A DNA stretch of 64,000 nt from Norana najaformis (lineage: Eukaryota > Annelida > Clitellata > Crassiclitellata > Hormogastridae): the NCBI GenBank assembly GCA_964023275.1, contig OZ029921.1, positions 2,162,159-2,226,158 of the forward strand. Direction: 5' to 3'. The stretch's first letter is position 1; each line of letters opens with the position of its first letter. Of this stretch, positions 35,401-64,000 are shown piece by piece. Below the pieces are notes generated by a model. It was given only the letters and a program-made list of their open reading frames with translations. It made no database searches and had not been told where the DNA came from. The position numbers were made by a program, and so were the translations under genes.

Positions 35401-38400
35401 CAGCTTAGGTCTTGGTCTTCCTTTCCTTCAGTTCTACTTCCACGACTCCTAACAATAGTAATAGTAGTAATAATAATAAAAATAATATTAGTAATAATAA
35501 GATTATTGATTGAGTGCCATAGTACAGTCTAAGCTGAAAAATGGCTCTGTAGTTACTTTCTGACTGCAGCCAGTTTTGGTATATACATGGATGATGCAAG
35601 TATGTCTGTATATGCATATGTGTGTATAAATGTATACGGAGTGAATTTCGATGCAGTATGTGGCCTGATGAATACCTTAAAAACACAACTGCACCGTATA
35701 TCCTGGGATGAGTTGCTTTATTTTGGTTTTGTGTTGTTGTTCTGCACAGGTCCAGGTTTTTTAAAATGTGAGGTGGAATTTGGTGGACCACTGGGCAGTA
35801 AAAAGGGATGCAATCTACCTGGAACTGCTGTTGACCTGCCGGCTGTCTCAGACAAAGACAACGATGACCTCTTGTTCGGAGTTGAAAACGGAGTAATGCT
35901 CTGTTCTGTCGTGCTTTGTATTTGTTGTCTCAGTATTTTTGGCTGGGCTAATTAAAAATGCTTATGCTAATTGAATATGTACTAATGTACTAATTAAATA
36001 TTCATGTGCTAATTAAATATGCATATACTAATTAAATATGTGTATGCTGATTGTTTATGCATGTGCTAATTGATTATGCATGTACTAATTAAATATGCAT
36101 GTACTAATTAAATATGTGTATGCTAATTGATTATGCATGTGCTAATTAAATATTCATGTGCTAATTAAATATGCAGTTGGAAGATCAGGCAGTGAAGGAA
36201 AGGCTGGCCACCTGCCTTCATAAGCCAAGGCTAAGAAAAGTAAATTCACTAGCACTTTATATCCTTGACTGCCTTGTAGGATTAGCTTAACGGACTCCTT
36301 TTCTCATATGGAGTTCTGAGTTTGCATAGAATGACATTGTTCTGGTGGATTTCAGATTGATCTGATTTTTGCATCGTTTATTCGGAGCGCGGATGGCGTT
36401 CGATCCATTCGAAGCATCTTGGGAGACAAGGGAAAACACATCAAGATCATCTCAAAAATAGAAACGCATGATGGATGCCGAAAGTAAAACTCCACAAGCA
36501 ACTTTTAATCTATTCTCATCTGGAAGCTCACAAACACACTTCGCCTCTTGCAATTTCTCTACAGGTCTTTCACTCAAAACTGAAAACATTCCTCTTCCAC
36601 AAATCCTATCCTGATTCTTCCTTTTACTCTTTTCTCACTTTCCGGTTCAATTCCAAACACCATCCACCACGTAGTAATCTGACTGTGGATCTTGACCTGG
36701 AAACGAACCCTTTCTGCCTGTCGATTTTGTTTTGACTGAGCACTTGTGAATAATTTGGTTCCCGTGACTTAGCTTTCATTGGGCACTGTAGAAGTTTCAA
36801 GCTTATGATTACGATTACAATAACGCCTATATTGTAATGTACAAGGAGGTTTCAGTCAATGGTCGCTTTTAAGCAAAATGACATTCTATAGTAACAATTC
36901 TTTGGACAGAATATGATGAGATTCAAGAGTAGAGTAATAACAAATATTATGTAGTATAATTAATTGTAATATAATGAAAGTAGATTAGCTAGTTTTTTGC
37001 CATATTTGCAGAACCTTTTTGAAACCTCATGGCTCTCTGGTTGGAAAATGTGCATAAATTTTGGGTGCATTTTCTTTGCAACTTCTGCTCGAGCTCTTCT
37101 GACCCTTCCTTGGCACGAACTCTTCTAAATTCAGAAGTCATCGCTTCCAGAATTTATCTGCTTTTACGTGGTGCTCAATTTTCGAGGTTTAACGAAATCT
37201 TGGATGCATCGGATGGTATCATGATTGCGCGTGGAGACCTCGGCACGGAAATTCCAACAGAGAAAGTCTTCCTCGCACAGAAGATGATGACCGGAAAATG
37301 TCTTCGAGTGGGAAAACCCGTCATCTGTGCCACTCAGGTAAATGACTGGAAATTTTTGTGTTCACGAATCATTTTATTTTAAGACAATTTTGTAATGCTG
37401 TCCTTTCTTGCAGGCCTGCTGAAGCATTGGATAAGTCAGCTAGTCTGGAAGACATATGCTCTAAGATTGGTAGATATCCACATACCAGTGCTTCTGAGAG
37501 ATGCCTAAAAGGTGCTATATAAATGTTCAGATACATACACTGCAGATTTGTTATAAAACACTTTGCTGTGACATAAATTCTGGCATAACTTGGTCACGGA
37601 GATGGAATCCAGCAGTAATTCACCTGTAGACAATAAACTTGTCTTAATATGACTACATTATAAGGCAATTCTAGCTGTGGCTCCCAAAGAAAGCGTTAAC
37701 AAATACGTATATACATGTACATATATACATAAATACGTGTACTTATATACATAAATACATGTACATACATACATATTTTCAGGTACATATGTGCATATAT
37801 ACATGTACATATATACATATTTTCAGGTACATATGTGCACATATATACATGTACATATATTATAACTATATATGCATACATGTATGCTTACATGTATGCA
37901 TTTATATATTTACAGGTACATATATACATAAATACATGTACATACATGTACTTACGCAGCACGGTGGTCTGTTGGTAACGCGTGTGGTCAGTGATCACAC
38001 GCCGTACACTGTCAGGACATTGGGACTTGCCCACCGTGGGCTCAAGGGCCTAAGAAAAAGAAATATGAACCTCCCCTACGTGTCACTTGTGGGATATGGG
38101 ATACTTTACGTTTTACTTACTTATATACATAAATACATGTACATAATTTTATTTACATAAATACACTTATATACATAAATACATGTACATAATTATATTT
38201 ACATAAATACACATATATACATAAATACATGTACATAATTATATTTACATAAATACACATATATACATAAATACATGTACATAATTATATTTACATAAAT
38301 ACACGTATATACATAAATACATGTAGATATATACAAGTACATATAACTGAGCTCCTTACAACATGCTTCATTATGGTACAAACGTCGTGTTCAGATGCTG

Positions 38401-41400
38401 GAGAGCATGATTAAGAAGTCGCGACCAACTCGTGCAGAGGCATCTGACGTGGCAAACGCAGTTCTCGACGGAGTCGACTGCGTGATGTTGTCTGGAGAAA
38501 GTGCCAAGGGTCTGTTTCCGGTCGTCTGTGTTGAAGTCATGAGTCGGGTAACTAACACCTTCGATCATTCATTCCTGTTCCGTTAGAACATCAACCGCAA
38601 TAGTGGTTGTTAAGGTCTAACCATTGCAAATAGTTTGCGAGCGGAATGAGCGCTACGCCATTCAAAGTCCCTGTGTATGGACCGTGCTAGCCAGAAATTT
38701 AAAAATTCATTGAAAAATGAGCAGGTCGAGGGCATATGGTTGCTGTTTAAATCCATGTACAATAACGTTTACAATCAGCACTTTTCTTTGCTTTCTGCTG
38801 TTTATTATCATTTCTCGTGGTTCAGTTTTTCCACGACTTAAGCATACCTATATCAAAGTCTGCCAATGTATTTGTACCGGTAACTAAGACTAGAATGGGT
38901 GATTGGGCCTTTCACGTGGCTGGTCCACATGCCTGGAATAGCCTTCTAGCATCCATTCAGGAGTCCAAAAGAGTCAACCTCTTTAAAAAACAGTTGAAAT
39001 TCTATTTACTTCATAACTCTTAGTTCTTGGGCTGACTTTTGACTTTGTAAAGCACCGTAGAAGTAGCCTGGTACTTACGATGCTATATAAATTGTTGTCA
39101 TTACATTACATTACATACATATAAATACCCAGAAACTTATGTGCTTACATATTTACATAGGCGTATATACCTGAAATTTTATGCTTTTGGGTCAGAAGTG
39201 GGGCCAAAAGCACCTCTGCCCTCTGATCTGTTAACACCCTTCCTTGATTACTGGTGTTTGTTGTAAGAAGGCTTCAGTATAGTTGTGATGCTATAAGCTG
39301 CTTTGCTTTCTAGATTTGCAAAGAAGCAGAAAGTGCTATTTACCACCGTCAGCTGTTTGAAGAACTGCGTCAACTGTCTGCTAAGCCAGCCGACACGTGT
39401 AAGACGACTGCCATAGGCGGTGTGGAGGCATCGATTGAGACAATGGCCGCTGCCATTGTGACGCTGACTGTCACGGGCCGGTCAGAATCGTATTTTATTT
39501 ATTTAGTTTTTTGGTTTTGCTCAAGGTAGTTTTGATTTGTTCAAAAAACATCAAGAGATTAGGAAATTTTCAGTTCTTGTCAAGATCTGGCAGGACAGAT
39601 GTGTTGCAGAATGCAAGAGCATTGGATTGCAATTGTGAGGTGTTGGAAAAGGTAACTTGTCTCTTTCAACTCTCCAGAAATTTGCGTTAGAGAATGCCCC
39701 AGTTCTGTAAGGAACTGGTGCTTTTTTATTTATTTATTTATACTACTTATTAGGCAATTCAATTAGTCAGAATCTTAGGTGCTAGGAAAGATGTGCATTA
39801 AAAGCTTGTCCAGGTTTGTTGACTCATTGCACAGACCTGCTCAGCACACGCAAACCCTGCAAACCTCGCCTGGCTGACCCTTGGATCTTCACCTGGAACT
39901 GAACCCTTCCTGCCCATCGATTTTGTTTTGACTGAGCACCTGTCAGTAAGCTGATTCCCATGACATGGCTTTCGTTTAGTGCTGTAGAAATCTTGAGTTT
40001 ACAATTACAATTACGAAACCCAGTCATAGATTAATTATAGACCCAGGATGCTACAGAAAAGACCATTATAACAGACCATGTTGCTGCATCTGGCTCTGAG
40101 AAGGTCTTATAAAAGATGTTCATTTGTAAGCATGATTACTGATTTTGAGCATTTTCTTCAGTCTCCGCGGTCAGCAAATAAATGTAAGTTTTCTGTTTTC
40201 AGGACCGCACAGCATCTGTCGAGTTTTCGTCCACGCTGTCCAATTATTGCGGTCTCGAGGAACGAACAAGTGGTTCGCCAGCTTTGTCTTTATAGGGGAG
40301 TCATACCCATCTATTACTCAAGTGGTAGGTTCTTCTGCACAACCGTTTTAAGGACTTGAGTAGAACACCAAGTCTTGAAATGCTGCTTTCAACACAGCGT
40401 CTGTTTGCGTCACCCTCACTGGTGACAAACGCAGCTGAGCATAGCTTTGGCAACAATGTTATGCCTGGCTGTTCTGACCTGGGCTTACTTCCATGCTTGT
40501 AATCGTAATTGTAAACTGGAATTTCTAAAGTGCACTTAAAAGCTAAGTGCAAGGCACCAGGTTGTTCATAAGCGCTGCGTCAAGTCAGTGGGGTTGTCCA
40601 AAGATGCCATGTCAAGAACCAAGTCCGGTTGCCAGAAGACCAGAGAGAGGAAGGGGAGAGGAACTATTAAGGTGGGTTGTGTTTAAGCTGAGAGAATTGA
40701 GAAGGCAGGCATGCTATATGAAGGTCGATATTCAAGGATGTCGGATCTTTCTTGACGAATCTATTCCATGTTGTCCAAGGTTGAATCTCTAGTCCTTTAG
40801 GACCATCAGAGTCCACAAGGCTGTCCAGTGGTCCTCATCTTCGGCAGTGCACACCCATCACTATGCAAGTAACATCAGTCACAGGGTTACTGTGGTCGTG
40901 TTTGCACATCTGCTGAATGACCTTCTGATCTCTGGACCATGTTTCTAAAGAGTTTCTGTAGGGGCGTGAAGTGTGTTACCTTCATAAGGTACCCGCAGTT
41001 GGCATGAACTTGACTTTTTCACTAGGGACCCAGTTAAGGTGCAGTTTGTAGGTGGGACGGGCCCAGACCGTCTCCAGTGGGATGCAACTTTCTCAGTCAA
41101 CAGCCTCCAGCCTTGAGGTCCTTCCCCACTGCTTTCCACCAAAAATTGTACCCTAAGCCCAATTAGATTTACTGCTTCCTCTGGTGCATTGCCTACCTTT
41201 AGGACTTGAGTTTAGCTGTGAATCCTGGTCTCAGAGAGATTTTCTTTCTTGTTTCTAACTGTCTCGAATTATTAATAGCCAAGGTTTTGTATGATATGCC
41301 TTTTAGTTTAACTTAAAACTGTTAAATTTATTGAACTTAGTGCTTTTGAGTCTTGTCTTCAACTGTTCTGGAGCCAAGGATTGACCTTTGAGTACTCTAC

Positions 41401-46800: not shown

Positions 46801-49800
46801 CTGGTGTCTGAGATCTTTTGACTTAAGCACAGGTGTTTAGACGCCACATGGAATTGTCTTCGATGGCTGTTCTGAAATGATTCTTTTTGTCCTCAGCTGA
46901 AGGAATTTGAAGAAGCGTTGGCTCGCAGGGATGAAGTCATTGGTAGCTTGTCGTCAAATTTGCGGACGATGACGGAAAATCGTGACACGCTGCAGGTGGA
47001 ATATACAGCACAGGCCAATCAACTGATGCAACAGGTGCACCTTCTGCAGCAGCAGCTGAAACAGGTCTGCATGATGCATCTCAAAGTTCATATCTGGCTT
47101 CATATTCACCCATGGCACTCATTCAGTCGAAAGCTGAAGGAATTTAATGAGTGAATTAAGTGAGGGGGCAAGTCAGTCAGTCAAAAGTCAACCAGTCAGT
47201 AAGTAAGTAAGTAAGTACCGGCCAGAGACTTGATTATCGATTAAGCATGAAACTGGAGAGCTCGTTTCGTCTTACAGCATCCGGTCCTTTGCTGCCTTAC
47301 ATCAGCCTAAGCATGCCATACTTTCTCATTTGTCTATCTGGCGCTGTGTCTACTGCATTTCCATGTAGGTGTTTCCTTGCAGTGTGGCCCTTGATATAAT
47401 CTGAGCTTCATCAGCATCTACTCTATCATTGATCTTAAGTGCAACATATCACGTGTACAAATAGTTATATCTGCCCACCAAGGTTATATATCAAGAAAAT
47501 GATTAGTCTTATTCAGTTTTCTGTTCATATTACTTAATTCATGATAGGCTGAGACTGAGGCAGATGGAGACAAGAGGCCTTGGTGGTGGTAAGTCAAGTC
47601 CAGGCAGCCTACATCCTTCAATGAACTTGCAATAAGGGTAGATACCTGGAAAGGACACTGTTCAGATCCTGGTACATTTCATTACCTTACACTGTATGTT
47701 TTGTATGTATTGTATGCATTGTATTGTATTTATCTAAGCTGAGCTAATGGCTTGCGTAGTGCTGTTATCGTAACGCGCACTTTGAGTGAATCTGTGATAC
47801 AAAAAATTTTATTGTATGATACAGGCCGGCAACTGGCTACATCTGCAAGACCACAGTTCATCTGCACAGGCCCTTCTTGAGGCCAAGAACGAACTACTGG
47901 CATTGCACGAGAACTGTCGTCAGAAGGAGAACCAACTCATCATCTTGCAGAACCTCGTCCACGAACGAGACACCACGCTGCAGCAGATCATCGTTCGATT
48001 CAACGAAACGACCCGCGACTTTGCCCAGATCCACGAGGAGAACCGCAGCCTCAAGGAACGCCTTGAAACGACTGAGGCTGAAGTCGCCCTGCTCCGTACC
48101 GAGCGGAACGCACTGAAGGCCGAAAAGGACGAGTACAACAGCATGCTGCACGAACTGCGCGCTGATTCGGGATCGGTCGAGAAAGAGAGCGCTAAGCTGT
48201 TGTTGCGACTGCAGCAGGAGAACGAGGTCCTTAGGCGGAAGGATCAGGAGAATGCCGAAGTCGTACGACAGCTCATGGCGGACGTTGAGAGTCAGCACAA
48301 GGGCCGGGATACAGATCAGTCGAAAATGCAGGGTTCGATTCCGTCGGAGACGTCCTTTACGAAGGAGGATCTTGAAGCTGAAGTCGAGAGACAGCTGAGC
48401 AAACTCCGGGCAGAGCTGGACGAAATCTACGGCACGGAAATCGGGCGGATGAAAGAGCACCTCCAGGACAAACATCGTGGCGAACTGGACAGGTTGAATG
48501 CAGAACTGAAACGTACTGCAGAGGAGAAAAATCGTTTTTCTGGCCAGGTGGAGCTCTGGCAGCAGCAGTATGTCCGCCTCAGTCAACAAAACGTGTCGAG
48601 TACTGATCTGGTAGAACAGCTGAGCGCAGTTGTTTCTGAGAATATCCAGCAGAAGCACCTGATCGAGGAGCTGAGAACACAACTGAAAGTGCTTACAGAT
48701 GAGCAGACAATTATTAAGACGAAGCTGGATGAACGAAACCACACGAGTGATGTCACCGCTGCTGGAAAACCTGGCCAGGCGGAACTCCTGGGGTTAGAGA
48801 ATAAGATTCAGGCCATGACAGAACATATCAGAACTCTCCAGGGGGAGCTGAGCTCCATGCTAGAGGAACGTGAGAAGCAGCAAGCGAAAATTGTAAATCT
48901 AGAGAGCGAATTGGAATCTAGTCGTAAGGTGGCAAGTGAGGCAGCGGAGAGATATGCAAGCGAGATAGAGGCGCTCCGAAAGGAGGCTGCCGTCGACATC
49001 CAAGAACTTGGCTTACAGTTGTCCGAATCTCAGAATCGCTTGAAGCTGTTGGAATCACAGAACGCTGGCCATCAGACGACTTCAGCCGAGTTAGGCCGCA
49101 TTAGAGAGCAGCTCGGACAGACTCAGCTGGACCACAGTGAACAGCTGGCCACTTTAAAGATTGAGTATGAGAAGTATGTGCTCGAGTTGAAGTCCTACCA
49201 TCAGGCAGAGCTCGAGACACTGAGCCAACAGAATACCTGGAAGATTAATGAGCTTCAGTCTGTTGTTAAGACGCAACAGGAAGAACAGATGGTTCTCGCA
49301 CGTCGACAGCTTGACGAGGCTGAGAAGATGTACCGGTCCCAGGTGGAGAATTTTCAGATGGAAAAGGAGGAGGCTTTGAAGCAAGAGGCTGAGCATTTCA
49401 AAGCGCAGATGGAAGAAATGAGGGAAAGCCTCGTGCGTGAACATTCCAGAGAGATTCTCGAGAGAATCGAAGAGGTGAAGTTGCGCTATGAACAGACGAT
49501 TTCAACTCTGCGTCAGGAATACGAAATGACGGTTGCTCAGCTGAACGATCAGCTAAGTGTGACTAAATCTGAACGGGAAATCCTCGCCCATTCTGCACAG
49601 GCTCCGGACCGGTCATCGGATGCAGTCGGAAGTCTCCAACTGACCATCAATGATCTGACCACCAAGCTGAAGAAAGTGACCAAGGAGAGGGACTCTGCCA
49701 TGCAGTCGCTGCAGACGGTTTACAGCGATCGCATCGAAATGAAACAGACCCTTGACCAGATGAACTCCGAGAAGGAGCACCTGCTTGCCAAGATGGAACG

Positions 49801-52800
49801 CATCACTGAAGAGCGACAGCTTGCCGAGACACACCTGAACGCCGTGTGCTCAGAGCGTGATGGTCTGAGGCACCTGCTTGACAAGCGGGAATCCAGTCAG
49901 GCAGCAACTGCTGGTAAACCGTCTCCAGATGTTCCGATGGTTGAGGTGGAACCTGGAACGAGGAAACGTACAGCAAGAGAGCAGATCGAAGCTATTGTCA
50001 GAGAGAGGAAAGCCTTGCAGGGTCTGATACTTTCAAATCCCGAAGAACGCGCTGCGGCCCAAATGCCTTCTGCCACAAGTGAGTTGTCCGACCCGTCGCA
50101 GTACTCCCTTGTTGACCAGCTGCGTTTTCAGTTTGAGGATCTGAAGCTGCGATACTCGCACGAGCTCCATGAATCGAAGGAATATCAAGTGGTGCTCTTG
50201 GAGAGGCTTGAAAATCTGCTGCAAGAAAACGAAATACTTAGGACAAGGAACTTGACAGAATCTCGCACTGAAAATAGAGAACAGGAAGTTAATGCACTGT
50301 CGCTGCAGTTGGCTGAACTTACTAAACGTTGCAGTGTTCTGAGTTCAGAACTCGAAGATCGAAACCAGCTTGTTGTAAAACTCCAGTTTTCACAGGGGGT
50401 TGCAGATGGAGAACATCATTTACAGTTGGACGCACTATTAAAAGAGAATGAAACATTGAAGCAGGAAGTTACACAAAGTCAGCAGAAGCTGCAAGATTTT
50501 GGAACATCCTACGAAGAAGCTGAAAAGGAAAGATCCGAAAAACTGACAGAAGAATGTTTGGTACTCAAACGGGAACTAGATACAATGTTAACGCAGAATG
50601 AAACTTTGAAACAGGAGCTAACAGAAAGACAACATCGGATGGAAGATCTAAAAACATCTTACGAAGCAGACAGAGCTGAAAGCTCTAAAAACGTTCAAGA
50701 ATTGTCACAAGAACTTTCGATGCTCAGGTTGCAGCTGACTGAAAGTCAAAAACAACTGGATGAAAGTAGAAGAGAAGTGGACAGTATGAATTCAGATGCC
50801 CAGCCTATGAGCCAAGTGGAAAAGACTCCTGGAAAGTTGAGCATCGATGTTACACACACTGAAAGCCGAGCAGTAGAGATGGATCCAGCAGAATTTCTGA
50901 CCCTGAAGCAGGAATATGCCTTGGTCTGTTCTGAGCTCCTTCGTCTGCGAGAGATGCTTTCCAGTTTACAGAATGTGAACAAAGAAAGAGAGGACGTGCG
51001 GGTGGAATTCGAACGACAGATTGCTCTGCTTCGCGAAGAGCTGTTACGTCAGACTTATGAACCCTCGCCAGATGCCGACAGAAGTCTTGAGGATGAGCTG
51101 AAACAGAAAGAGGCTGAGGTACAGGACTTAAAAAATCAGCTTTCTAAGGCACTCGCAAAAATGAACGAACTGCTCATCGAAAGGGATTCGCAGCGATCAG
51201 ATTATGAAGACGAACTGGAACAGATACGCCGAGAACATGCTGATGCGTTGCACCGTATAGATGCACTTGTCCAGGAGCATAACATCATGTTCCAGGGATT
51301 CGGCAGCAGTTCATTCGGTCCAGTTGCCATAGAGATGCCGCAGTTGACAGACCAGAACATCGAAGAGGAACCTAGCCCAAGAAAAGTGGTTTATGAAACG
51401 CAGAGCCTAGAGATCACGCGTCTGAGGAACGAGCTGCTGGAGGCACTTGGCCAGAATGAGTCTCTCTCCACTGAAAACAGTAACCTGCAGACGAAACTGG
51501 AGGCAGCATCCCTCGATTTTCTCAAAAACATCGATGAGGCTAACATGGAGAGCAAGAGAGCGAAAGAGACACTGGAGAAACAGATAGCGAGCATCAAAAC
51601 CGAACTGGTCCAGTCAAACTACAAACTCGATTGTGCATCCTTGGAAAATGAACAGTTGGTTGCTTCTCACCGAAAGGAACTGGATCGAGTGGCAGACGAG
51701 TATGACTGTCAGATCAAAGCGCTTACAAGTCGGATCGAAGAGGCCAAAGCGGATAGCGAGCTCGAGGTGACTTCGATCAAGAAGCGTCTTGCTGAGCTGC
51801 AGGATGAAGTTGAACAGCTGCAGTCTGAGAAGGTGAACCTCGAACAGGAATTCATTTCCGAGATGCAGAAAACATACAAGGAACACGAGGTTCGAGTCAA
51901 AAATGTTCGGGAGAGCTACGAACAAGATATAGAGTCGTTGCAGATGGAACTCACAAAACGGGACGAAGACATGACGACTCGCTTGGAAGAGCTGGATGGC
52001 ACACGACAGCAGAACACCTCGCTGTTGAATCAGCTCGATCAATTACTGCAGGAGAGAGACTGGACAAAGACTCGACAGTCACAGGAGGTACCTTCCGAGA
52101 TGACGCAGTCGGAAAAGGAAGCGGCGCTTCTTATCCGCCTTGACGTTCTTGACAGAGAAAAGGCAACCCTGATGAAGCAACTCGATCTAATGAAAGAGGA
52201 ATATTCCAGCAACTATGATGAGCTGGAGAGGGCCCGAGCTGCAAACGAAACTTTAAGAAGGGACCTGAATCTGCTGAATGCGACAAAAGGTGATTGGAAA
52301 TCGGACATGGGTGCAAAGCAAAGCATTCTGAGTAACGAATCTGTGGTGACCGACGCAAGTCACGATGATGGAGTGATTAAAGAAATTGATAACTCTGCAT
52401 TTGGTGAACCTCACATTAAAGCCTTGAGCAAGAAAGTCCGATCGCTGCACATGGAAAAAGAGCTCCTTGCTAGCATGGTGGAAAGATTGAACCGAGAAAA
52501 GGAACAGCTCTTATCCTACCTGGTGACAAAGTCACAGTTGGACCAAGTTTATGAAATTGACATGTCACACTTGGACCTTCAGCCGGGACAGAGTGCAAAC
52601 GTAACTGGTGCCGGCTTCGATTCCAGGGATCAGAGACTACGGTCGCTAGAGACAGAGAAGGAGCTGCTTGTGGGAATGCTCGAGAAGCTTAGCCAAGAAA
52701 ATGAACGACTGGTAGCTCATTTCAGTGCTTTGGATACATCAGAAAGCGACCATGACAGTGTCGAGGCTGGTGGTGTGAGTATCGGTGGTGATTTGAGCCT

Positions 52801-55800
52801 CTATCCTGAAGGCGACATCTTGGGAGTTGTTACTAGGGAAGGAAAACCAGGAGCCGAAAGTCACATTGTTGTGCTTCAGGAGGAATTAGCATCTCTAAAA
52901 GAAGAAAACGAGAGACTGAAAGAAAAGATCAGCGATTACGAGCGGAGCGTAGAGTCGTTGAATGTGGCACTGCAGGAGAAAGACCAGATGCTGTCGGAGG
53001 CATCCAGGAAATTGGAGGAGCTGAGCAAACAGCAAAGACAAGAAGATGGGCGCCCGGTGGAAGAGGTATTGATTATTGATAAGGAGATTTCAAAAGAGGT
53101 TCCAACTGGTGGTAAGGACCTCATGGAAGATATTCTATATGATGACAAACAGCTTGACAGAGAATCTGCTGCTACTTCTGATACAGATGTGGTAGATGCA
53201 AACAGCTCAAAGGAACAGCTTTTCGCAGAGATTGAGAGATTGCGTTCAATGGTAACGAATGCTGAGTACAAAAAAGAAGAGGTTTCGCTGGTCAGCATGG
53301 AGGTCATTGAACCTGAAAGTTTACAGTCAAACTTGGATGATATTCGGCGAAAAGTTGAAGCAGAAAAATCTGAAGAGATTGAATGCCTTAAAAACGAACA
53401 CCAGCTTGTTGTTACAAATCTGTCTAGTCAGATTTGTCAGCTGAATTCTGAGCAGGACGCAGTTTCCTCTGAGATCAAATCACACTTGCGGGAACTTCTG
53501 ACATGTGTAGATTTGTCTGCAATTCCAGAAGAGCTAAGCTCACAAGTCACAGAGTTGCTGGAAGGTAGAGGTGAGAATATAAGCCTCCTGAATTTAATCC
53601 AGCTATTAAAACATGGAAAATCTGTCGTAGATAGCAACACGAGAAGTGTGAGCGATACACAGGATGAGGATTTGCAGGAAAGAAAGAACCTGATTGATTC
53701 TCTGATGGAGGAGAAAGGAAAGTTGGAAAAGGAACTGGCCAACATGAAAATCCAGCTGCTGGAAGTTTTGCCATTCAAGGAAGTGGTTTCGGTCGATTCT
53801 GAGTTGACCATCAGTGTATTGATTGACCAGGTGAAGCAGATTGTTGCAGAAAGGAATGAACTGGAGGAAGCAAGATCCTCTTTAGAAAAAGAAAAACAAG
53901 AAGGAGCAGCCACAGTTGGCCTTCTTCAGATAGAGCTGGATAAAGTCCGATGCCTTTATGCGGAAGCAGAGGAGAAACTCTCTGTGATGCAGAAAACTGT
54001 GGATACAACTATCAGCTTGAATGCCAAACAATCTGTGACCAGTGACAAACTGCCAGCTCAAGAAAATAAACATCTTTCTCTTTCAGAAGACTCTAGGGTA
54101 GCGTTTGAAGAACAGACTGTGGAAGAAACTGCAACAGAGACGTTGGGCAAGGAGGTACAAAAGGTAGCAAGGTTTGATGATGTGTCAAGCGTAGGAGAAA
54201 TTCAACAGGGTGAAGAATCAGTTGGAATGGAAGAAAAGAGAGAATTGGAAGAAGTGAGGAAATTAATGGCTGATATGAGGACAGAGAAGACCGCCTTAGA
54301 GTCGGAAATGAGAAATGTTAGTGAGCAGGTCAATGAACTGTCTTCCAGACTAAGTCAGTTTGTAATGACGTGCACAGGTGGCCAAGAAACAGAAAGGAAA
54401 GAAATAACTACTGATCTGACACAAACTGAGGAGGCCTCACCAACATTTGAAACAACACTCCTGAAAGAAGAAATTGACATTGCATCTAACGTTTGGGGCA
54501 AGATTGATTTAGGTTCTGATATCAAAGTGTTGCTTTCCAATGTTGACCAGGTTTTGAATAGATTGTCTGAAAGTGAATCTGCTAATCAGGAATTAACGGC
54601 CAAGTTGCAAGATGCCGAAATCCGCTGTGATGGTTCGAATTCTCGAGTGACCGAGTTTGAATTGCTAGTGACGTCAATTAAGAGAGAAAGTGACACACTG
54701 ATTTGTGGCTTAGAAACACGCGTGGTTGAGTTGGAAGCAGAGAAAGATGCGCTGTATTCTGTAACAACTGAGCAGAATTCGTTAGTCTTAACAGGGCAAG
54801 ACGAGTTAAAACAGCTGCGTGAAGTGGATCGTGAAAAGACTGATGTTGTGAATGGGCTGAAGATGCAGGTGGAAGCCCTGATGCAAGAGAAACAACAGCT
54901 AGTCATGGAACTTGATGTGATTCGGAGCGAAATGGAAAGATGTAGGAATAACCTAAGTGCCGACAAGAAAAGTGATAGATTGGGTGGAGAACTGGCTGAA
55001 GAAAGGACCATGTCAAGACCGGAGTTGATGGTGGAAGAGGTGAATGCCAAGGATTTAACTTGTGAAGCTGGGTTTAAAACCATGACAGAACAGGAGTTGA
55101 AGGTGGAAGATTTGGATACCCAGGATTTAACTTCTGAAGTTGCATTGGAAACCATGACAGGAAAGGAGTGGGAATTGGAAGAGATTGTTGTCAAGGATTT
55201 AACTTCTGATGCTGGATCAAAATCCGATGTTGACAAGCAAAGATGTGTTGAGCTGAAGGATTCATTTTGCCAGACAGAGGACGTGGAAGTTCTGGAAAAG
55301 ATTGATGGTTTATTGAAGCACAAGCATGAGCTTGAACAAAATGCACCCCCTACGAACATTCCAACGTTTGGCTTTCTACCACAAGACATTCCAGATGTGT
55401 CAGAGTCCGTCGGAAAACTTGAATCTGCAGTTGACAGTGCAACAGAAGTTGAGATTTCTTCAGAGTTTGGCAAATCTCAGAAGATGCTTTCTGCTGAAGA
55501 TGAAAGTGGAAAGGTAGTTCCTGTCAGAATGGTGGAGAGAGGTTTGGTTGTCTTAGCCGACACTGGGAACGTGCAAGTTGTTAACGAGATTGCTCAATCC
55601 GAAAATACTGGAATGGCTTTGGAATATCAAGATGTTGAGCAGTCAGAAGTTTCAAATTTGGTTTCTACCACATTGTTTGGTATTGAAGAAGTTTCTCCTA
55701 AGACAGCAGAGACAAAACTCAATTTGGGTGCTCAAGAGCAAGGAGTGAAACAAACTGTCAATGTTTCTCTTGTAGATTTGCAAAACCAACAGATGACTCT

Positions 55801-58800
55801 GCAGGAGTTGACAGCAATTCAGGAACTCATAGTTTTACTAAACCAGCGGATTGAGATGCAAGATAAAGCCCTCAAGGAACTTGCAGAATTGGGCAACAGA
55901 TCTCAGCGGGAGAACACAGAGAAGACTATTTTAGTGGACCAGCTCAGAACAGACAATCTAAAGCTAATTGATGAACTCTGCATTGTTCAGGAAGAACTTA
56001 CTAACGTTCAGAACAGCCTTGAGCATGTAACTGAAGAGTGGAGACTCGTCGATGATCAGCTTTTGGTTCAGAAGTGCAAATTTGATGAAGCAATTGAAGA
56101 AAGTGTGAAAACAGTGGACATACTGAGAAAGGAGCTAGAGGATGGTCATGAACAAATTGCTGAGGTGCAAAGTATTAAACAGCAGCATGTGGAAAGTTTA
56201 GCAACGATTGCTGAGCTGAGGAAACAGCTTGAGGAAGTGCAGAAGCCTAAATCAGAGGAAGTGTTGCATCTTGATGTGACAGATGTGGAAAGTCGAGCTA
56301 CTAGTATCTTGCCAGAACAACTTGAGGAGGAGCATCTGAGGCGTAAAGCTGAAATAGTGACACTTGTTGATGACTACCAGAGGAGTCTGGAAACTATACG
56401 GGAGTTGCAGCAACAGCTTGAAGATGAAAAAAATATGAAGATCAATCCTGAAAGCCAGACTACTCTCAGAGACCAGATTGTAAGGGAAAGCCAGCTGACA
56501 GCTGTGCTTCAGACTACAAGTGAAAGCCAGACTGTAGCTGTAGACCATGTGACAGTTGAAAGCCAGACTAGCATGGATGAGAGTGTAAGTGAAGAGCAGC
56601 TTACAACTGTACCTCAGACGACCAGCGAAAGTCAGACTACAGTTGTGGACTATGTATCAGGGGAAAGCCAGACTGTAGCTGTAGACCATGTTACTGTTGA
56701 AAGCCAGACCAGCATGGATGAGAGTGTAAGTGAAGATCAGCTTACAACTGTACATCAGACGACCAGCGAAAGCCAGACAATGGTTGTAGACTTTGCATCA
56801 GGGGAAAGCCAGACTGTTGCTGTAGACCATATTACTGTTGAAAGCCAGACCAGCATGGATGAGAGTGTAAGTGAAGATCAGCTTACAACTGTACATCAGA
56901 CGACCAGCGAAAGCCAGACAATGGTTGTAGACTTTGCATCAGGGGAAAGCCAGACTGTAGCTGTAGACCATATTACTGTTGAAAGCCAGACCAGCATGGA
57001 TGAGAGTGTAAGTGAAGATCAGCTTACAACTGTACATCAGACGACCAGCGAAAGCCAGACAATGGTTGTAGACTTTGCATCAGGGGAAAGCCAGACTGTA
57101 GCTGTAGACCATGTTACTGTTGAAAGCCAGACCAGCATGGATGAGAGTGTAAGTGAAGATCAGCTTACAACTGTACATCAGACGACCAGCGAAAGCCAGA
57201 CAATGGTTGTAGACTTTGCATCAGGGGAAAGCCAGGCTATAGCTGTAAACCATGTTACTGTTGAAAGCCAGACAAGCATTGATGAGAGTGTAAGTGAAGA
57301 GCAGCTGTCAACTGTACTTTGTACTACAAGTGCTAGCCAGACTGTGGTAGTAGACCATGCGACAAATGAAAGTCAGACTACAGCATTAGACTGTGCTTCA
57401 AGCGAAAGCCAAACTACAAGCGCAGACCATGTTACAATTGAAATCCAAACAGCAAGCATGGTCCATGTGACAAGTGAATGCCAGACTATCAGCATAGATC
57501 TGGCTACAAGTGAAAGCCAGACAAGCACAGATGAAACTGTAAGCGAAAATCAGCTTACAAGTTTACCTCAGGCAAGTGAAAGCCAGACTACAGCCGTAGA
57601 CTACGCTTCAAGTGAATGCCAGACAACCAGCATAGACCTTGCTGCAGTTGAAAGCCAATCTAGAGTTGTATTACAGACTACAAAGGAAAGTCAAACTACA
57701 GACGAAGTTCAAGCTCTGAATAAGAACCAGACTCCAACTGTAGCCCAAACTACAAATGAAAGTCAGACTACAACTGTAGACTTTGCTACAACTGAGAGTC
57801 AGACTACAGTTGAAAGCACAACTTTGAGTGAAGGACAAGGCGAAGAGTCAGTGCTGCTGGAAACTATTTATCAGCTGAAGGTCGAGAATGAACAGCTGAG
57901 GGCAGCAATAAAGCTACAACTCCATGTAGCTACAGTTACAACTCAGACTACATACGAACCTCAGACTACAAACGTAGACCATTTCACGGCTGAAAGCCAG
58001 ACTACATGCATAAAGCAGACTGCAATGGAAGCCCAAACAAGTGTAGACCAGACTACAAGTAAAAGCCAGACTACACTTGAAGACCATGGTACAGTTGAGA
58101 GCCATACAAGCACAGACCAGACTACAAGTGAAAGTCAACTTACAACTATATCTCAGACTACAGGCGAAAGCCTGACTACAAGCATAGATCATGTTACTAG
58201 TCCGAACCAGACTACAGTTATAGACCATACTACAGCTGAAAGCCAGACGAGCATTGATGAGACTGTAAAGGAAGATCAGCTTTCAACTGCATCTCAAACT
58301 ACAAGCGAAAGCCAGACTGCTAGCATAGACCATGCTACAGTTCAAAGCCAGACAAGCATAGACGAGACTGTAAATGAAGATCATCTTACAACTGTACATC
58401 TTACTACAAGTGAAAGCCAGACTACAATTGTAGACTATGCTTCAGGGGAAAGCCAGACTGCTACTCTAGACCATGCTACAAGTGAAAGCCAGACTACAAT
58501 TGTAGACTATGCTTCAGGGGAAAGCCAGACTGCAATTGTAGACTATGCTTCAGAGGAAAGCCAAACTACAAGCAAAGACCATGTTACAATTGAAATCCAG
58601 ACTACCAGCACAGAACAAGTGACAAGTGAATCCCAGACAGTCAGCATAGATCTGGCTACTGCTGAAATCCAAATGAGCATTGACCAGACTGTAAGTGAAC
58701 ATCAGCTTACAACTGTACCTCAAACTACAAGTGAAAGCCAGACTATGGTTTTAGACCATGCTACAGTTGAAAGCCAGACTACAGTTGTAGACCAAACCAC

Positions 58801-61800
58801 AACTGAAAGCCAAACTATGAGCATAGACCAAACTACGAGTGAAAGCCAGACTACAAGAATGGACCAAATTCCTGCTCACAGCCACACTACAAGTGTACTT
58901 CCAGATCTTTTTGAAATTCAGACAAATGTTGAGAACAGTATAACTGAAGAACAGGAGTTGCAGCTCGAAGATCTGCATAAGTTGAAAGCTGAAATAGCAA
59001 AATTGACGGAACAGTATCAGGAAAGTCAGAAAACTATTTGTCAGCTGAGGGAACAACTTGCAAGCGAGACGCTATCAGTTGCTAAAGATATCCCCTACAC
59101 TGGAAGCCAAATAACATCTTCTAGCCAAACTACAGGTGGAGATCCAGCTTTGAGTGAGAGCCATACTGTGTTTGAGGTCCATGCTGGCACTGTCACTGAG
59201 ACTGCAAGTGAAAGTCAGACTGCAGCTGTTAATCAGTCTATGGTTGAAAGTCCGGCTATAAGCATTGACCAGGCTACATGTGAAAGTCAGACTATAATCA
59301 TAGACCAGACTAGAGCTGAAAGCCAAAGCACAGTTGTAGAGCAGGTTTCAGCTGAAAGCCAAAGTACAGCTGTAGAGCAGGCTACAGTTGAAAGCCAAAG
59401 TACAGCTGTCGACCAGGCTAGATCTGAAATCCAAAGTACAACTGTAGAACAGGCTACAGCTGAAAGCCAAAGTACAACTGTAGAGCAGGCTACAGCTGAA
59501 AGCCAAAGTACAACTGTAGAACAGGCTACAGCTGAAAGACAAAGTACAACTGTAGAGCAGGCTACAGTTGAAAGCCAAAGTACAGCTGTCGACCAGGCTA
59601 GATCTGAAATCCAAAGTACAACTGTAGAACAGGCTACAGCTGAAAGCCAAAGTACAACTGTAGAGCAGGCTACAGCTGAAAGCCAAAGTACAGCTGTGGA
59701 GCAGGCTATAGCTGAAATCCAAAGTACAACTGTAGAACAGGCTACAGCTGAAAGCCAAAGTACAACTGTAGAACAGGCTACAGCTGAAAGCCAAAGTACA
59801 GCTGTGGAGCAGGCTACAGCTGAAAGCCAAAGTACAGCTGTGGAGCAGGCTACAGCTGAAAGACAAAGTACAACTGTACACGATGCTACAGTTGAAAGCC
59901 AGGCTAATGTTGAGATTCAGACTATGGATAAAGATGAAAGAGTTGATGACAAGTCAGATTTGCATTCTGAGTATGAGGAGTTAAAACTGGAATTGATTAA
60001 ACTAACTGAGCAGAATTACCAAAATCAGGAGACTATTTATCAGCTGACATTTGAAAATGAAACACTAAAATCTGCAATAAGTCTACATCTTCATGAGACT
60101 ACAGTTGAAAGCCAGACTACAACTGATAGGCAGACTAAAAATGTAGACCAGTCCACAGCTGAAAGCCAGACTACAGTCATAAAGCAGGCTGCAGTGGAAA
60201 CCCAAACAAATGTAGATCAGACTGCAAACGAAAGCCAGACTACAAATGAAGATCTGACTACAGTTGTAAGCCAGACTTCAATTTCATCCCAGAATACAGT
60301 TGAATGCCAGACTATGGATGAAGGCCAATTCACAGCTAAAAGTCAGATGAGAGCTACACACCAGACTGCGGTTGAAAGTCAAACAGCTGAAGAGGGCCAG
60401 AGTACTAGTGAAAGCCTGACTTCAGTTGAAAGCCAAATTAGTGGCAATGACCTGACTGGTGAGAGCAAAGCTTCTTTTGATAGCCAGACTGAAGCAACCA
60501 GCCACGCTACAGATGAATGTCAAACTACATATACAGCTCAAGCTACGGTTGAAAGTCAGACTGCTGGAATAGCCAAAATTACAGTTGAAAGTCAAACTAC
60601 CTGTGAAGGGCTGGCTGCGGCTGAAGGTCAGACTGCTGGAATAAACCAGACTACAGTTGAATGTCAAACTACAGATGAAGGTCAGACTACAAACGAAAGC
60701 CAGTGTACAGTTGTAGATCAAACTGAAAGTGAAAGCTTGACGGTGAGTCAGACTACAGTTTGTAGTCAAACTACAAATGTTGGCCAAACTAGTGGCGAAA
60801 GTCAGACTACAGCTGTAACTCAGAATACGTGTGAAAGCCAGACTACCTGTATTGACCTAGCAACAGTTGAAACTCAGACTGAAACCGAAAGCTATTATAC
60901 GGTTAAAACCGAGACTACAGGAGCCAGCCATGCCGCTAATGTAGTCTGGTTAGAAAATGCTGAGCCTCTGTTGCAGGTAACAGGAGCTGGTTCACTGCTG
61001 CAGCTGGGTGGGAGTGCAGGTGAAGAGCAGTTAATGCTGACCAGCAGGACAGAACATGCAGTCGTTAGTGCCAGTCGCACGGAGCAGGATCTGCAGAGTA
61101 GGATCAAGTTCTTGGAGGAAGCTCTAGCCAGACAGAAGCATGAATTTGACGAGAGTCTGTTTGAGATGAGCAACAAGCTTGCCTTGGTGACTTCACAGAA
61201 GCAAGAAGGAGATGCTGGCTTGACAGAGGTTGAGGCAAGATTTGTCGAGCAGGTGAAACGGCTCGGGAATGAATTGGCAAAATCTGAGGAAGATAAAATG
61301 AAAATCGAAGAACTAGCGCAGCAGAGAGGTGAGGAACTGGCCCAAGTGGCTGATCTTGAGCTGAAACTGACAACAAAAGTTCAGGAACTAGAAGAACACC
61401 TGAGGAGCAGAATGAGCACAGTGAAAGAGCTGGAACAAGCTGTGCTAGAGCTGAAGAAGGAAAAGGAAGAACAGACTGTCAGGTTCACAAATGTTGAAGC
61501 AGAATTGACACAGAAAACAAGAGGGCTTGAAGATGTCATATCTCAATTGGAAGCCGATTACAAAACTTTGGAGGAAACATCTAAATCAAAGGAGGAACTT
61601 TTAGGGAAGTTGGTTGAAGTTGAGCAGCAGCTAAAAAATAAGAATGCTGAGATGGAGTTGGAACTGGTTGAGAAAAGCAGTAAGCTGGATGAATCAGAGA
61701 ATGCTTTGGGAGGATTGAACGAGAAGCTTGCTTCCTTAACTGCTGAGAAAGCTGAGCAGATTAAAGAAATGCAGGAAGAAAACATTATACTTGAAAAGAA

Positions 61801-64000
61801 GCTCACAGACTTGCAGGAAATGGTCCAGCATCTTGAATTGAATGTGAAGGATTTGGAAGAATCGGCACGAAATACGCAAGAAGCCTTGCTTATGAAGGAT
61901 ACGGAGTTGACAAGCAAGCTGGTGGAGGTAGAAGAATGCCGCAAGAAGATTCAGTCTCTTGAAGACACAGTTGCCAAGTTGCATGATGATATCAGAATTC
62001 ATGAGGAAACTGTTGCAGAGAAGGAGAAGTTCTTCAGAGTCGAAGTTGAGGAAAAACAGAAGATCATCAATGAGAACGAGAGTAAGACTGATGTAATTGA
62101 GCAAAGCAAAGAAGAAATGGCAGCAAAGCATTGCGAGTTAGAAGAAAATTTGAACAAGAAGATTTCAAACCTTCTGGAGGAACGTGAATCACTGTTGATT
62201 GAGAAAGCAAAACAAGAGAGTCTCATTTCGGAAATATCTGTGAAGTTGTTGGCTGCAAACGACGAAAGAGATAAGGCAATTCTGTCCCATAATCAGGTTG
62301 AAGAAAGCTGGAAGTTGGAGATTGAAGAGCTACAGCAGAAACAAGAGTCTTTTGAAAACAAGGTGCAGTCTATGACGGAGGAGCTAATGGGTTCAAAGGA
62401 AGAACTCATTGCATCACAGAAGAATCTCACATCAGCTGAGGAAACTCTAGCAACCAAAGTGAATGAACTGCAGAGCGCCGAGTCCACAATGGCAAAAGAA
62501 AAAGAGAGCTTCGATAGTGAACGTCAGTCGCTGAATGCACAAATCAAACAGCTGGAGGATGTGGTTAGGGAAAAGACGGAGAGTGTGGTAGAGCTGGAGG
62601 ATGCTGTTGAAACGCTGAAACAAGATCTCGTGACGTCGCAGGAAGACTTGCAGAATCTCCTCAAGAGCCTGGAGGACAACCAGAAGGAACGACGATCCAT
62701 GGTGGAGGAGCACGAAAAGGCGCTGGTAGAGCTGAGCAGTAAAGCAGCCGCTGCGGAGATTGACAAAGATGAAGCCGTTCGACGGTGTGAGCAGCTGGAG
62801 TTGGAGGTGCTGGCAAGAGCGGAAGAACTGGAAAAGTTTAGAGAACTGCATTCACAACAGCTGGCAGCTACAAAACAGGATTACATTGCAATCATCGCCG
62901 AGTTGAAGGATAGTCTGGATAGAGCTGAACAAGAGAAAACAAAGATCTTGAGTCTTCAGGGTGAGGGTAAAACAACAGTGGTAGTTGGAGAAAGCATGGT
63001 CCTTGAGAAGGGAATTCAGACTGTTGACCAGAGCAAAGGTAGCACTGAGAAACTTGAAGGTGGATTGCAGGTGAGCACAGGTAGTGCATCGTTTGGTGTT
63101 GATGAGGCTGATGATGGCAGCCAAAAGAAGAGTAAGGTGGAGTCAAATCTTGCTGGAAGGGCCTCGGAGTCAGGTCTTGATGGAACGGAGAGTGAGATCC
63201 TGATGAAAGACTTGAGTGCCGAACTGCTTCTGACGGAAGTGACGGATGTGGTCATTACGAAGGAAGTAAAAAGTCTTGAGGAAAATCTCACAGAGATGAA
63301 ACTACGATATTCAGAGCTGGAAAAGCAGCTGACAACAGTCCGAGAGGAGCTGAAGGCATTGAAAGAGGACAATCTTCAGCTGGAAAAGTACATCGAAAGG
63401 CTCAGTTCGGGTAAGTTGGAAGCGGAACAACATAGCTGTGCTCTTTTGGAAGATAACGAACAGCTTTCTTTGCAAGTGGATCATCTGTTAAAGGAAAGAG
63501 AGATGTTGGAAACGAAGGTGTCTGAGCTTCTTTTGACGTGCAAATATGTGGAGGAAGCTGCTGACGATGACGCAGAAAAGAAAGAGCCAGGCGATCGGAG
63601 CACATTAATGGAGAACATCAGGCATTTGGAGCATCAGATTGAAGAACTTTCGCAGGCCAACGATATTCTGATAACGGAGAACGAGTTCATAAGCGACAGC
63701 ATGGACCATGCCGAGGGGTGCCTCAAATCCGCCGGGTTTGACCAGGAGAAGAAGGAGTTTGATTACAGGAAGCAGATCACAGAGTTGGAAAGTCAGCTGC
63801 TGATGGCGAGTGAGGAATCAGAGAAGATGCAACGAATGTACGAGGAACAGATTGCTAACCTTAAGATGAAGTTAGGCTTTGAAACGCAGAAACTGGTCCA
63901 TTCACCAACCAGTTCGAATCATTCTTCGGACGTGACTGCGATGGAACTCCAGACTGCAAAACTTCAGCAGGAAAACTTGGTACTGAGTGAGAACCTGAAG
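43826..64000 (+). CDS. AKAP9: AKAP9/pericentrin-like giant coiled-coil scaffold, 3' end beyond the window
   Basis: Plus-strand exons 43826-43870, 44885-45004, 45468-45626, 46170-46253, 46897-47064, then 47825 to the edge. All junctions are phase 0 and give 5,584 codons without a stop. The N-terminus (MEDDRRQKVESAKQT, LAKYRKKK) and the blocks LKEFEEALARRDEVIGSL (from residue 137) and LRAELDEIYG (about 386) match vertebrate AKAP9. That protein scaffolds PKA and gamma-tubulin complexes at the centrosome and cis-Golgi. The rest is heptad-rich coiled coil with Leu, Glu, Gln and Lys, interrupted at about residues 3,085-4,550 by Ser/Thr/Gln/Glu-rich ESQT repeats that have no counterpart I know of in vertebrate AKAP9. 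Coiled coil resumes to the edge. A PACT domain, expected at the C-terminus, would be off-window. The donor after exon 1 (GTCATT) is weak. Pericentrin is the alternative name, as many invertebrates have one member. Confidence 0.85.
45859..46061 (+). mobile_element. LINE ORF2 C-terminal relic
   Basis: A plus-strand frame reads ARRRPKMTCIDSIKAWTELS, matching the minus-strand relic at 19390-19570. It lies in the AKAP9-like intron between the exons ending 45626 and starting 46170. Confidence 0.65.
46553..46617. repeat. Long inverted repeat (hairpin)
   Basis: Arms 46560-46581 and 46589-46610 are perfect 22-bp reverse complements around a 7-nt AT-rich loop. After one mismatch, pairing continues six more bases on each side (46553 to 46617). 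It lies in an AKAP9-like intron. Confidence 0.9.
46691..46763 (-). pseudogene. tRNA-Asn-like pseudogene or SINE head
   Basis: Minus strand: A box TAGCCTAGTGG, anticodon-loop-like CTGTTAA (GTT, asparagine) and B box GGTTCAAATCC, with a 5-bp T stem (CATGG/CCATG). The acceptor stem does not pair (GGGGTGT against GCCTGAC) and the anticodon stem is poor, so it is unlikely to be a working tRNA. A tRNA-derived retroposon head is the main alternative. Confidence 0.55.
55022..55237 (+). repeat. Coding 72-bp triplicate in the AKAP9-like exon
   Basis: Three 24-residue units start at 55022, 55094 and 55166. Each shows L/W-x-VE/LE, KDLT or QDLT, and ETMT-like positions. Divergence is moderate, so the event is older than the ESQT expansions. 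Confidence 0.8.
56522..57367 (+). repeat. Coding 141-bp tandem array (47 aa, six units) in the AKAP9-like exon
   Basis: Units begin at 56522, 56663, 56804, 56945, 57086 and 57227. Each consists of ESQTVAVDHVTV, then ESQTSMDESVSEDQ with LTTVHQTTS, then ESQTMVVDFASG. The three central units are nearly identical at DNA level; the first and last are diverged. This fits recent unequal exchange inside an open frame. Confidence 0.95.
57368..59317 (+). repeat. Degenerate ESQT 12-residue array in the AKAP9-like exon
   Basis: Dozens of 11-12-residue units follow the pattern ESQTTxVDxATx, with ECQT, EIQT, KSQT and ESHT variants. Two short coiled-coil modules (about 57835-57920 and 58940-59075) interrupt the array. 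The composition is Ser, Thr, Gln, Asp and Glu with very few basic or aromatic residues, so disorder is expected. Confidence 0.9.
59318..59893 (+). repeat. Coding 36-bp tandem array (12 aa, sixteen units) in the AKAP9-like exon
   Basis: Sixteen units of ESQSTTVEQATA type at exact 36-bp spacing. A five-unit (180-bp) higher-order copy is visible: the order ATV, DQARS, EIQ, ESQ at 59354-59497 recurs at 59534-59677. Unlike the flanking arrays, the core is SQS rather than SQT. Confidence 0.96.
60095..60890 (+). repeat. Degenerate ESQT array, second block
   Basis: Follows the fourth coiled-coil module (59950-60090). Units vary more in length and sequence (VETQTNVDQ, ECQTTDEGQ, ESQTAGIAK). The array ends at VETQTETES, after which coiled-coil sequence resumes at about 60990. 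Confidence 0.85.

Follow-up and report, generated by a model that had tools for sequence, protein, structure and literature searches.

A tandem ESQT repeat array, a candidate multivalent short-motif platform, in a probable AKAP9/pericentrin-family gene of Norana najaformis

The 64,000-nucleotide stretch analysed here (the window; C9:2162159-2226158, on contig OZ029921.1 of the Norana najaformis genome, 608 Mb in 17 contigs) carries on its + strand a giant open frame, 5,401 codons of which lie in the window. In the genome the full frame comprises 5,533 aa and ends at C9:2226554. Positions 56450-60907 of the window, 1,486 stop-free codons within this frame, contain 97 QT dipeptides and a tandem array built around the tetrapeptide ESQT, which is the subject of this analysis. 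An earlier note on this DNA had described the region as a single array of QT cores at mostly 11-12-residue spacing and proposed that it recruits LC8 (dynein light chain, DYNLL). We find instead that three coiled-coil-like segments break the region and that another precedes it. The layout is as follows (window coordinates, unless C9 is given).

47798..64000, continuing beyond the window end, + strand: giant open frame without stops, probably one exon
56300..56449, + strand: coil segment 0, directly before the array; blastp match to coil segment 2 (49% over 37 aa, E 7e-9)
56450..57829, + strand: sub-array A (tandem repeat and segmentation), with a 141-bp (47-aa) repeat in 5.6 copies at 56522-57317
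57830..57934, + strand: coil segment 1; blastp match to coil segment 3 (64% over 25 aa, E 3e-9)
57935..58924, + strand: sub-array B (segmentation)
58925..59095, + strand: coil segment 2; matches coil segments 0 (E 7e-9) and 3 (E 3e-7)
59096..59917, + strand: sub-array C (tandem repeat), mainly a 36-bp ESQS/VEQA repeat (16.7 copies, 59301-59901)
59918..60094, + strand: coil segment 3; matches coil segments 1 and 2
60095..60907, + strand: sub-array D (segmentation)

Profile segmentation of the region yields 102 twelve-residue units with the consensus E-S-Q-T-T-x-V-D-[Q/H]-A-T-x (ESQTxxVDxATx), each joining the hexapeptides ESQTTx and VDQATx, which are related to one another. Repetition in tandem occurs on several scales, including 18, 36 and 141 bp; the sixteen-unit 36-bp block with an SQS core reported in the earlier note is recovered as the 36-bp repeat of sub-array C. 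S, T and Q make up 46-50% of the sub-arrays, which have a net charge of -0.13 to -0.16 per residue and contain only 22 K+R in 1,328 residues. This composition suggests that the array is probably disordered. The coil segments were compared by blastp in a four-sequence database without composition correction, and the pairs 0-1, 0-3 and 1-2 were weak or non-significant (E 0.008 or worse). A repeated module of coil plus array is a possible reading of the arrangement.

The QT count is far above the 34.6 +/- 5.0 expected from 2,000 composition shuffles, and SQT (57 against 4.8 +/- 2.1) and ESQT (47 against 0.5 +/- 0.7) exceed their expectations even more strongly. The residue before QT is S in 57 cases, C in 5, I in 4, T in 3 and another residue in 28; SQS occurs 12 times. 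The canonical TQT forms to which the earlier note drew attention are rare; TQT accounts for just 3 of the 97 QT and stays below its shuffle mean (6.6 +/- 2.4). Successive QT are 12 residues apart in 40 of 96 steps and 6 apart in 29. Among the 69 [STICV]QT cores a step of 12 is seen in 35 of 68 cases and a step of 11 in one. The repeated QT cores are therefore real, but their spacing is 12 and 6 rather than 11-12.

The giant frame has no Pfam match, and an NCBIfam scan gave weak generic coil matches only; upstream of the array the same frame holds a 72-bp coding repeat (2.9 copies, 55007-55217). At C9:2318247-2318477, 92 kb beyond the window end, the same strand carries a PACT domain (PF10495; E 5.1e-17, 71 bits against a cut-off of 25). 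Between the giant frame and this domain, a filter on coil composition retains 43 + strand frames. Several were retained by chance, being out of frame or simple repeats, and just one is listed from 2244215 to 2269957. The survey of the interval was confined to coil-like frames on the + strand. Because a PACT domain lies downstream and coil-like + strand frames lie between, the giant frame and the PACT domain are probably parts of one gene of the AKAP9/pericentrin family, in agreement with the AKAP9-like scaffold that had been proposed. The genome has four PACT-domain loci, one on C9, one on C11 and two similar ones on C5, ~49 kb apart. A putative human AKAP9 stretch (LRAELDEIYG) gave a match with E 2e-4 for a nominal 10-million-letter database, and one further frame may belong to the 5' part of the gene:

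46876..47151, + strand: frame upstream of the giant one, possibly with an N-terminal coil exon of the scaffold gene; its weak resemblance to a putative human AKAP9 fragment (E 0.09, nominal 10-million-letter database) is a lead only

A second giant open frame (C9:2228114-2244214, 5,367 aa), probably of the same gene, contains tandem coil repeats of 126 bp (42 residues, 10.2 copies) and 84 bp (28 residues, 7.8 copies). A third frame (C9:2272600-2276715, 1,372 aa) shows tandem 43-residue coil repeats by eye (REEANTWKVQAEQME). Given the repeats in these two frames, tandem expansion seems to be a habit of the scaffold gene.

Because one genome holds ~100 copies of the unit, constraint can be measured between the copies. 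The codon test set consisted of 97 units (83 distinct DNA sequences), five of the 102 units having been dropped as they lie in coil segments. For each codon column, parsimony changes were counted on a tree built from the remaining eleven, with normalisation for codon degeneracy. The normalised ratio of nonsynonymous to synonymous changes (N/S) was 0.41 for E (p 0.045), 0.40 for S (p 0.0024), 0.14 for Q (p 1e-4) and 0.50 for T (p 0.085). Pooled over ESQT it was 0.39 (63 nonsynonymous and 47 synonymous changes; p 1.9e-6; Fisher test against the rest, p 4e-4). Columns 5-12 ranged from 0.56 to 1.90 singly and gave 1.10 when pooled. ESQT appears to be under purifying selection while the other eight positions, pooled, drift. 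Free drift of the QT positions, which the earlier note had named as counting against its proposal if seen in close relatives, is not what we see between units. The ESQT ratio was 0.32 in runs of at least four contiguous units (65 units), 0.39 without the 36-bp block and 0.40 without both young blocks. Twenty neutral simulations on the same tree gave 0.97 +/- 0.16 for ESQT and never less than 0.73, and the Q column never fell below 0.38; one simulated set had diverged somewhat further than the real units (mean pairwise difference 0.51, as against 0.42). To guard against an alignment that merely picks the better half of the unit, the halves were swapped randomly in long runs and the best phase was chosen again. 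The observed QT excess of 29 was above the maximum of 27 in 5,000 such trials, and the Q excess of 24 was attained in two. When each column was instead contrasted with its counterpart in the other half by an un-normalised bootstrap, Q (p 0.0045) and Q+T (p 4e-4) differed. Since the matching half is much less constrained, general composition does not account for the constraint on ESQT. The ratios of 0.39 for ESQT and 1.10 for the remainder make the array look like a multivalent short-motif platform under selection and not like a passive spacer. Earlier signals of drift at T (+1 relative to Q; pairwise pN/pS 1.57) and at S (raw parsimony, 22 nonsynonymous events) were dropped because the counts ignored codon degeneracy or copy number, and the normalised, simulation-checked test replaced them. 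An excess of I/C at -1 (6.6/11.6 events against 2.5/10.2 in control columns) was too small in number to claim.

Several observations weigh against a disordered array with a maintained motif. Constraint is read between paralogous units of one genome, not between orthologues, and the unit trees are weak because units are only 36 bp long. T at +1 alone falls short of significance in the normalised test, and in the un-normalised contrast no difference is seen for T (0.12), S (0.09) or E (1.0) taken one at a time. S is replaced in 30 of the 97 units, and a block of ~16 units with an SQS core was amplified recently, which would be odd if T matters. Outside ESQT two columns are mildly low as well, namely column 9, which holds the Q of the other hexapeptide (0.56, p 0.04), and column 11, which holds the T at -4 (0.66, p 0.085). 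Seven ESQTs lie in eleven-residue segmentation gaps outside the 97-unit set, and the charge-hydropathy value of the array is no sharper than that of the flanking coils.

On balance we put at about even the chance that the region is an acidic, probably disordered array of multivalent short linear motifs that expanded in tandem within a giant AKAP9/pericentrin-family scaffold. ESQT looks like a short linear motif that is maintained on an otherwise drifting scaffold. The dimerised coiled-coil scaffold would display dozens of weak, equivalent ESQT sites, and these would act through avidity. The constraint profile, with Q in first place, E, S and T behind it and a hint at -4, resembles that of LC8 save for E at -2, and that of an S/T-Q kinase save for T and the replaceable S. 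A reader other than these two is a substantial possibility, somewhat short of even. Of the named mechanisms, multisite S/T-Q phosphorylation with ESQ as the acceptor fits best and is proposed tentatively; weak LC8 avidity comes second. These gradings are judgement, not calculation. The array is a natural experiment in which one gene repeats a short motif ~100 times and selection is measurable between copies in a single genome, and the apparent retention of four residues amid drifting surroundings makes the identity of the ESQT reader directly testable.

If the units form an S/T-Q cluster domain (SCD), ESQ would be a multisite phospho-acceptor for an ATM/ATR-type kinase, and the array a charge switch or a phospho-docking platform. 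By the definition in PMC3564818 an SCD has three or more [ST]Q per 50 residues, a density found across 94% of the array; however, composition alone yields 63% coverage (60 shuffles). The array has 83 [ST]Q against 59.1 +/- 5.7 in shuffles, pooled N/S for S and Q is 0.32 (p 7.6e-6), and basic residues are very few. Vertebrate PCNT is among the proteins named as having a conserved SCD in PMC4705472. S is nevertheless kept less strictly than Q, with I, C, D, N, R and other residues found in its place, and a constrained T at +2 from the phospho-S is unexpected. On this tentative reading the array would be an S/T-Q cluster of unusual regularity in a scaffold of centrosome/Golgi type.

The array might also be a slippage-prone part of a giant exon that has expanded neutrally into a long flexible linker, like other segments of the gene. 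The neutral pooled ratio of columns 5-12, the young homogeneous blocks within the array and the repeats of the second (126 bp and 84 bp) and third (43 aa) frames are all in line with such an expansion. We regard it as unlikely, as the ESQT ratio lies far below the simulated 0.97 +/- 0.16 and the matching half of the unit is far less constrained.

In the LC8 reading the array would be an extreme platform, with weak [S/I/C/T]QT sites by the dozen at 12-residue intervals, bound by avidity between coiled-coil dimers to form a long beads-on-a-string duplex. The spacing of many QT cores fits LC8, as had been claimed. The individual sites were scored with a small LC8 matrix of our own, built from 27 published binder octamers and checked against 27 published non-binders (leave-one-out AUC, the area under the receiver operating characteristic curve, 0.87). 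Eighteen of the binders come from the 19 rows of strong binders in Tables 1-2 of Jespersen and nine from Table 1 of Erdos; one octamer was entered twice, one binds at 32.7 μM, and four weak binders were left out. The non-binders are the 27 of 43 rows with a usable anchor. Median scores were 15.0 for binders, 8.6 for non-binders, 6.8 for SQT units of the array and 1.9 for SQS units. The position-matrix check suggested in the earlier note thus places the SQT units at non-binder level. Thirteen array sites pass the 10th percentile of the binders (9.2), against 3.4 +/- 1.8 in shuffles (maximum 11); 11 of the 27 non-binders pass the same threshold, and no array site reaches the binder median. Individual sites inside and outside the array are these:

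60860..60883, + strand: ATVETQTE, the top LC8-like octamer of the array, score 14.2 (binder median 15.0)
60188..60211, + strand: AAVETQTN, TQT-type, score 8.5, about the non-binder median
57929..57952, + strand: ATVTTQTT, TQT-type, score 8.4, about the non-binder median
63002..63025, + strand: LEKGIQTV, isolated LC8-like site outside the array, score 6.5; resembles the KGVQT sites of LCA5 and ZFPM1
55256..55279, + strand: KDSFCQTE, isolated QT site outside the array, score 5.6
54407..54430, + strand: TTDLTQTE, isolated QT site outside the array, score 6.4

Flanks favourable to LC8 have a polar or acidic residue at -4, a large one at -3 and P, D or E at +2. These are largely wanting in the array, with P, D or E at +2 in 2 of 69 cores and a small residue at -3 in 32 of 69. 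None of the 69 cores has an acid at -4 and two have one at +2, against four and five of the seven isolated [STIVC]QT sites in the gene's frames (Fisher p 2.3e-5 for +2); 24 of 69 carry a hydrophobic residue or Ala at +2. A polar T/S at -4 in 79 of the 102 units agrees in part with the LC8 preference there. Of the five SQT peptides in Table 1 of Jespersen 2019, one is a weak binder and four are non-binders. The SQT peptides listed in Erdos 2017 bind at 0.45 (WWC1), 5.3 and 32.7 μM, all with D at -4. The typical repeat unit looks as if it is not built as an ordinary LC8 site, and most units look too weak. The proposal that most units are LC8 sites is accordingly not upheld, given the median score, the lack of acid at -4 and +2 and the absence of T enrichment at -1. 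In addition, E at -2 is constrained about as strongly as S, although LC8 tolerates variation at this position in published data. The gene's frames contain a few ordinary LC8-like sites, mostly outside the repeats, that may bind LC8 regardless of the array. Isolated and array sites differ at the upper end of the scores: three of the seven isolated sites score 12.4-13.6 (LETQTE, SSSQTE and DVGIQTG, all in the second giant frame, C9:2228114-2244214), against five of the 69 array cores that reach at least 12.3.

Other data are more favourable to LC8. Constraint is highest at Q, next at -1 and +1, mild at -4 (0.66) and lacking at -5, -3 and +2, which follows the LC8 footprint, and the median total score of the array cores (6.6) is no worse than that of the seven isolated sites (6.5). 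In published work the CQS site of LCA5 works in its coiled-coil protein context and not as a peptide, and ASCIZ lost binding only after three SQT/VQT motifs had been mutated besides the TQTs. The LCA5 CQS site scores -3.6 on our matrix, so low scores are compatible with context-dependent binding. As weak sites can work by avidity in LCA5 and ASCIZ, LC8 keeps a place among the candidate readers, an improbable one. If LC8 were the reader, the array would hold far more sites than the eleven of ASCIZ, and would to our knowledge be by far the largest LC8 array. More doubtful still is a combined view in which 60 to 100 selected low-affinity ESQT sites between coiled coils of a single AKAP9/pericentrin-family chain form a concentration-sensing polymer, read by LC8 or another protein through avidity and possibly phospho-gated; phosphorylation of the S of ESQ would then block an LC8-type pocket.

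We know of no ESQT array in vertebrate AKAP9 or pericentrin. The locus shares with these a long coiled-coil protein and, probably, a C-terminal PACT domain; it differs in that two of its open frames exceed 5,300 codons. Known systems offer partial parallels, as described in PMC6607443, PMC12057147, PMC10046861, PMC9481538, PMC3078936, PMC5746249, PMC5963919, PMC3564818 and PMC4705472. ASCIZ/ATMIN (11 sites in human) and Nup159 (5 sites) likewise have many closely spaced QT-anchored sites in a disordered stretch. However, ASCIZ mainly uses TQT, whereas the array, known from its sequence, is dominated by SQT (TQT 3 of 97), has poor flanks and exceeds it several-fold in copy number. LCA5 (lebercilin), a centrosomal protein, also has a weak Q-anchored site near a coiled coil, but it has two sites, one of canonical VQT type, and not dozens of near-identical weak units. 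S/T-Q cluster domains share the dense S-Q dipeptides in an acidic segment; the known ones are variably spaced, in contrast to a tandem repeat of ~100 units. Titles and abstract openings in one open-access library, on AKAP9 with LC8/DYNLL1 and on LC8 with SQT or tandem repeats, gave no such array.

Relatives were also sought by sequence. The best PDB match of the array was OR464 (E 7e-4), taken as compositional. The N-terminal part of the frame had no PDB match at E 0.001, and the upstream exon with the frame start had matches of E 0.6 and above only. No relative of sub-array A or the downstream coil was confirmed in viral contigs, nor of the 36-bp block in prokaryote genomes, collections that are not where animal orthologues would lie. 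In the genome itself, a query of 57800-58200 (coil segment 1 and the start of sub-array B) had at least 15 matches, and all 15 listed are inside the array.

Elsewhere in the window, four + strand frames at 33478-38583 match the pyruvate kinase barrel domain (PF00224), so the scaffold gene has a pyruvate kinase gene upstream of it. At 23351-24071 a 30-bp unit recurs 24 times (97% match) as a minisatellite with open frames on both strands. A 414-residue open frame on the - strand (21130-22371) has no Pfam match, is P/G/M-rich in the part seen and includes a 21-bp repeat (8.9 copies) at 21611-21797.

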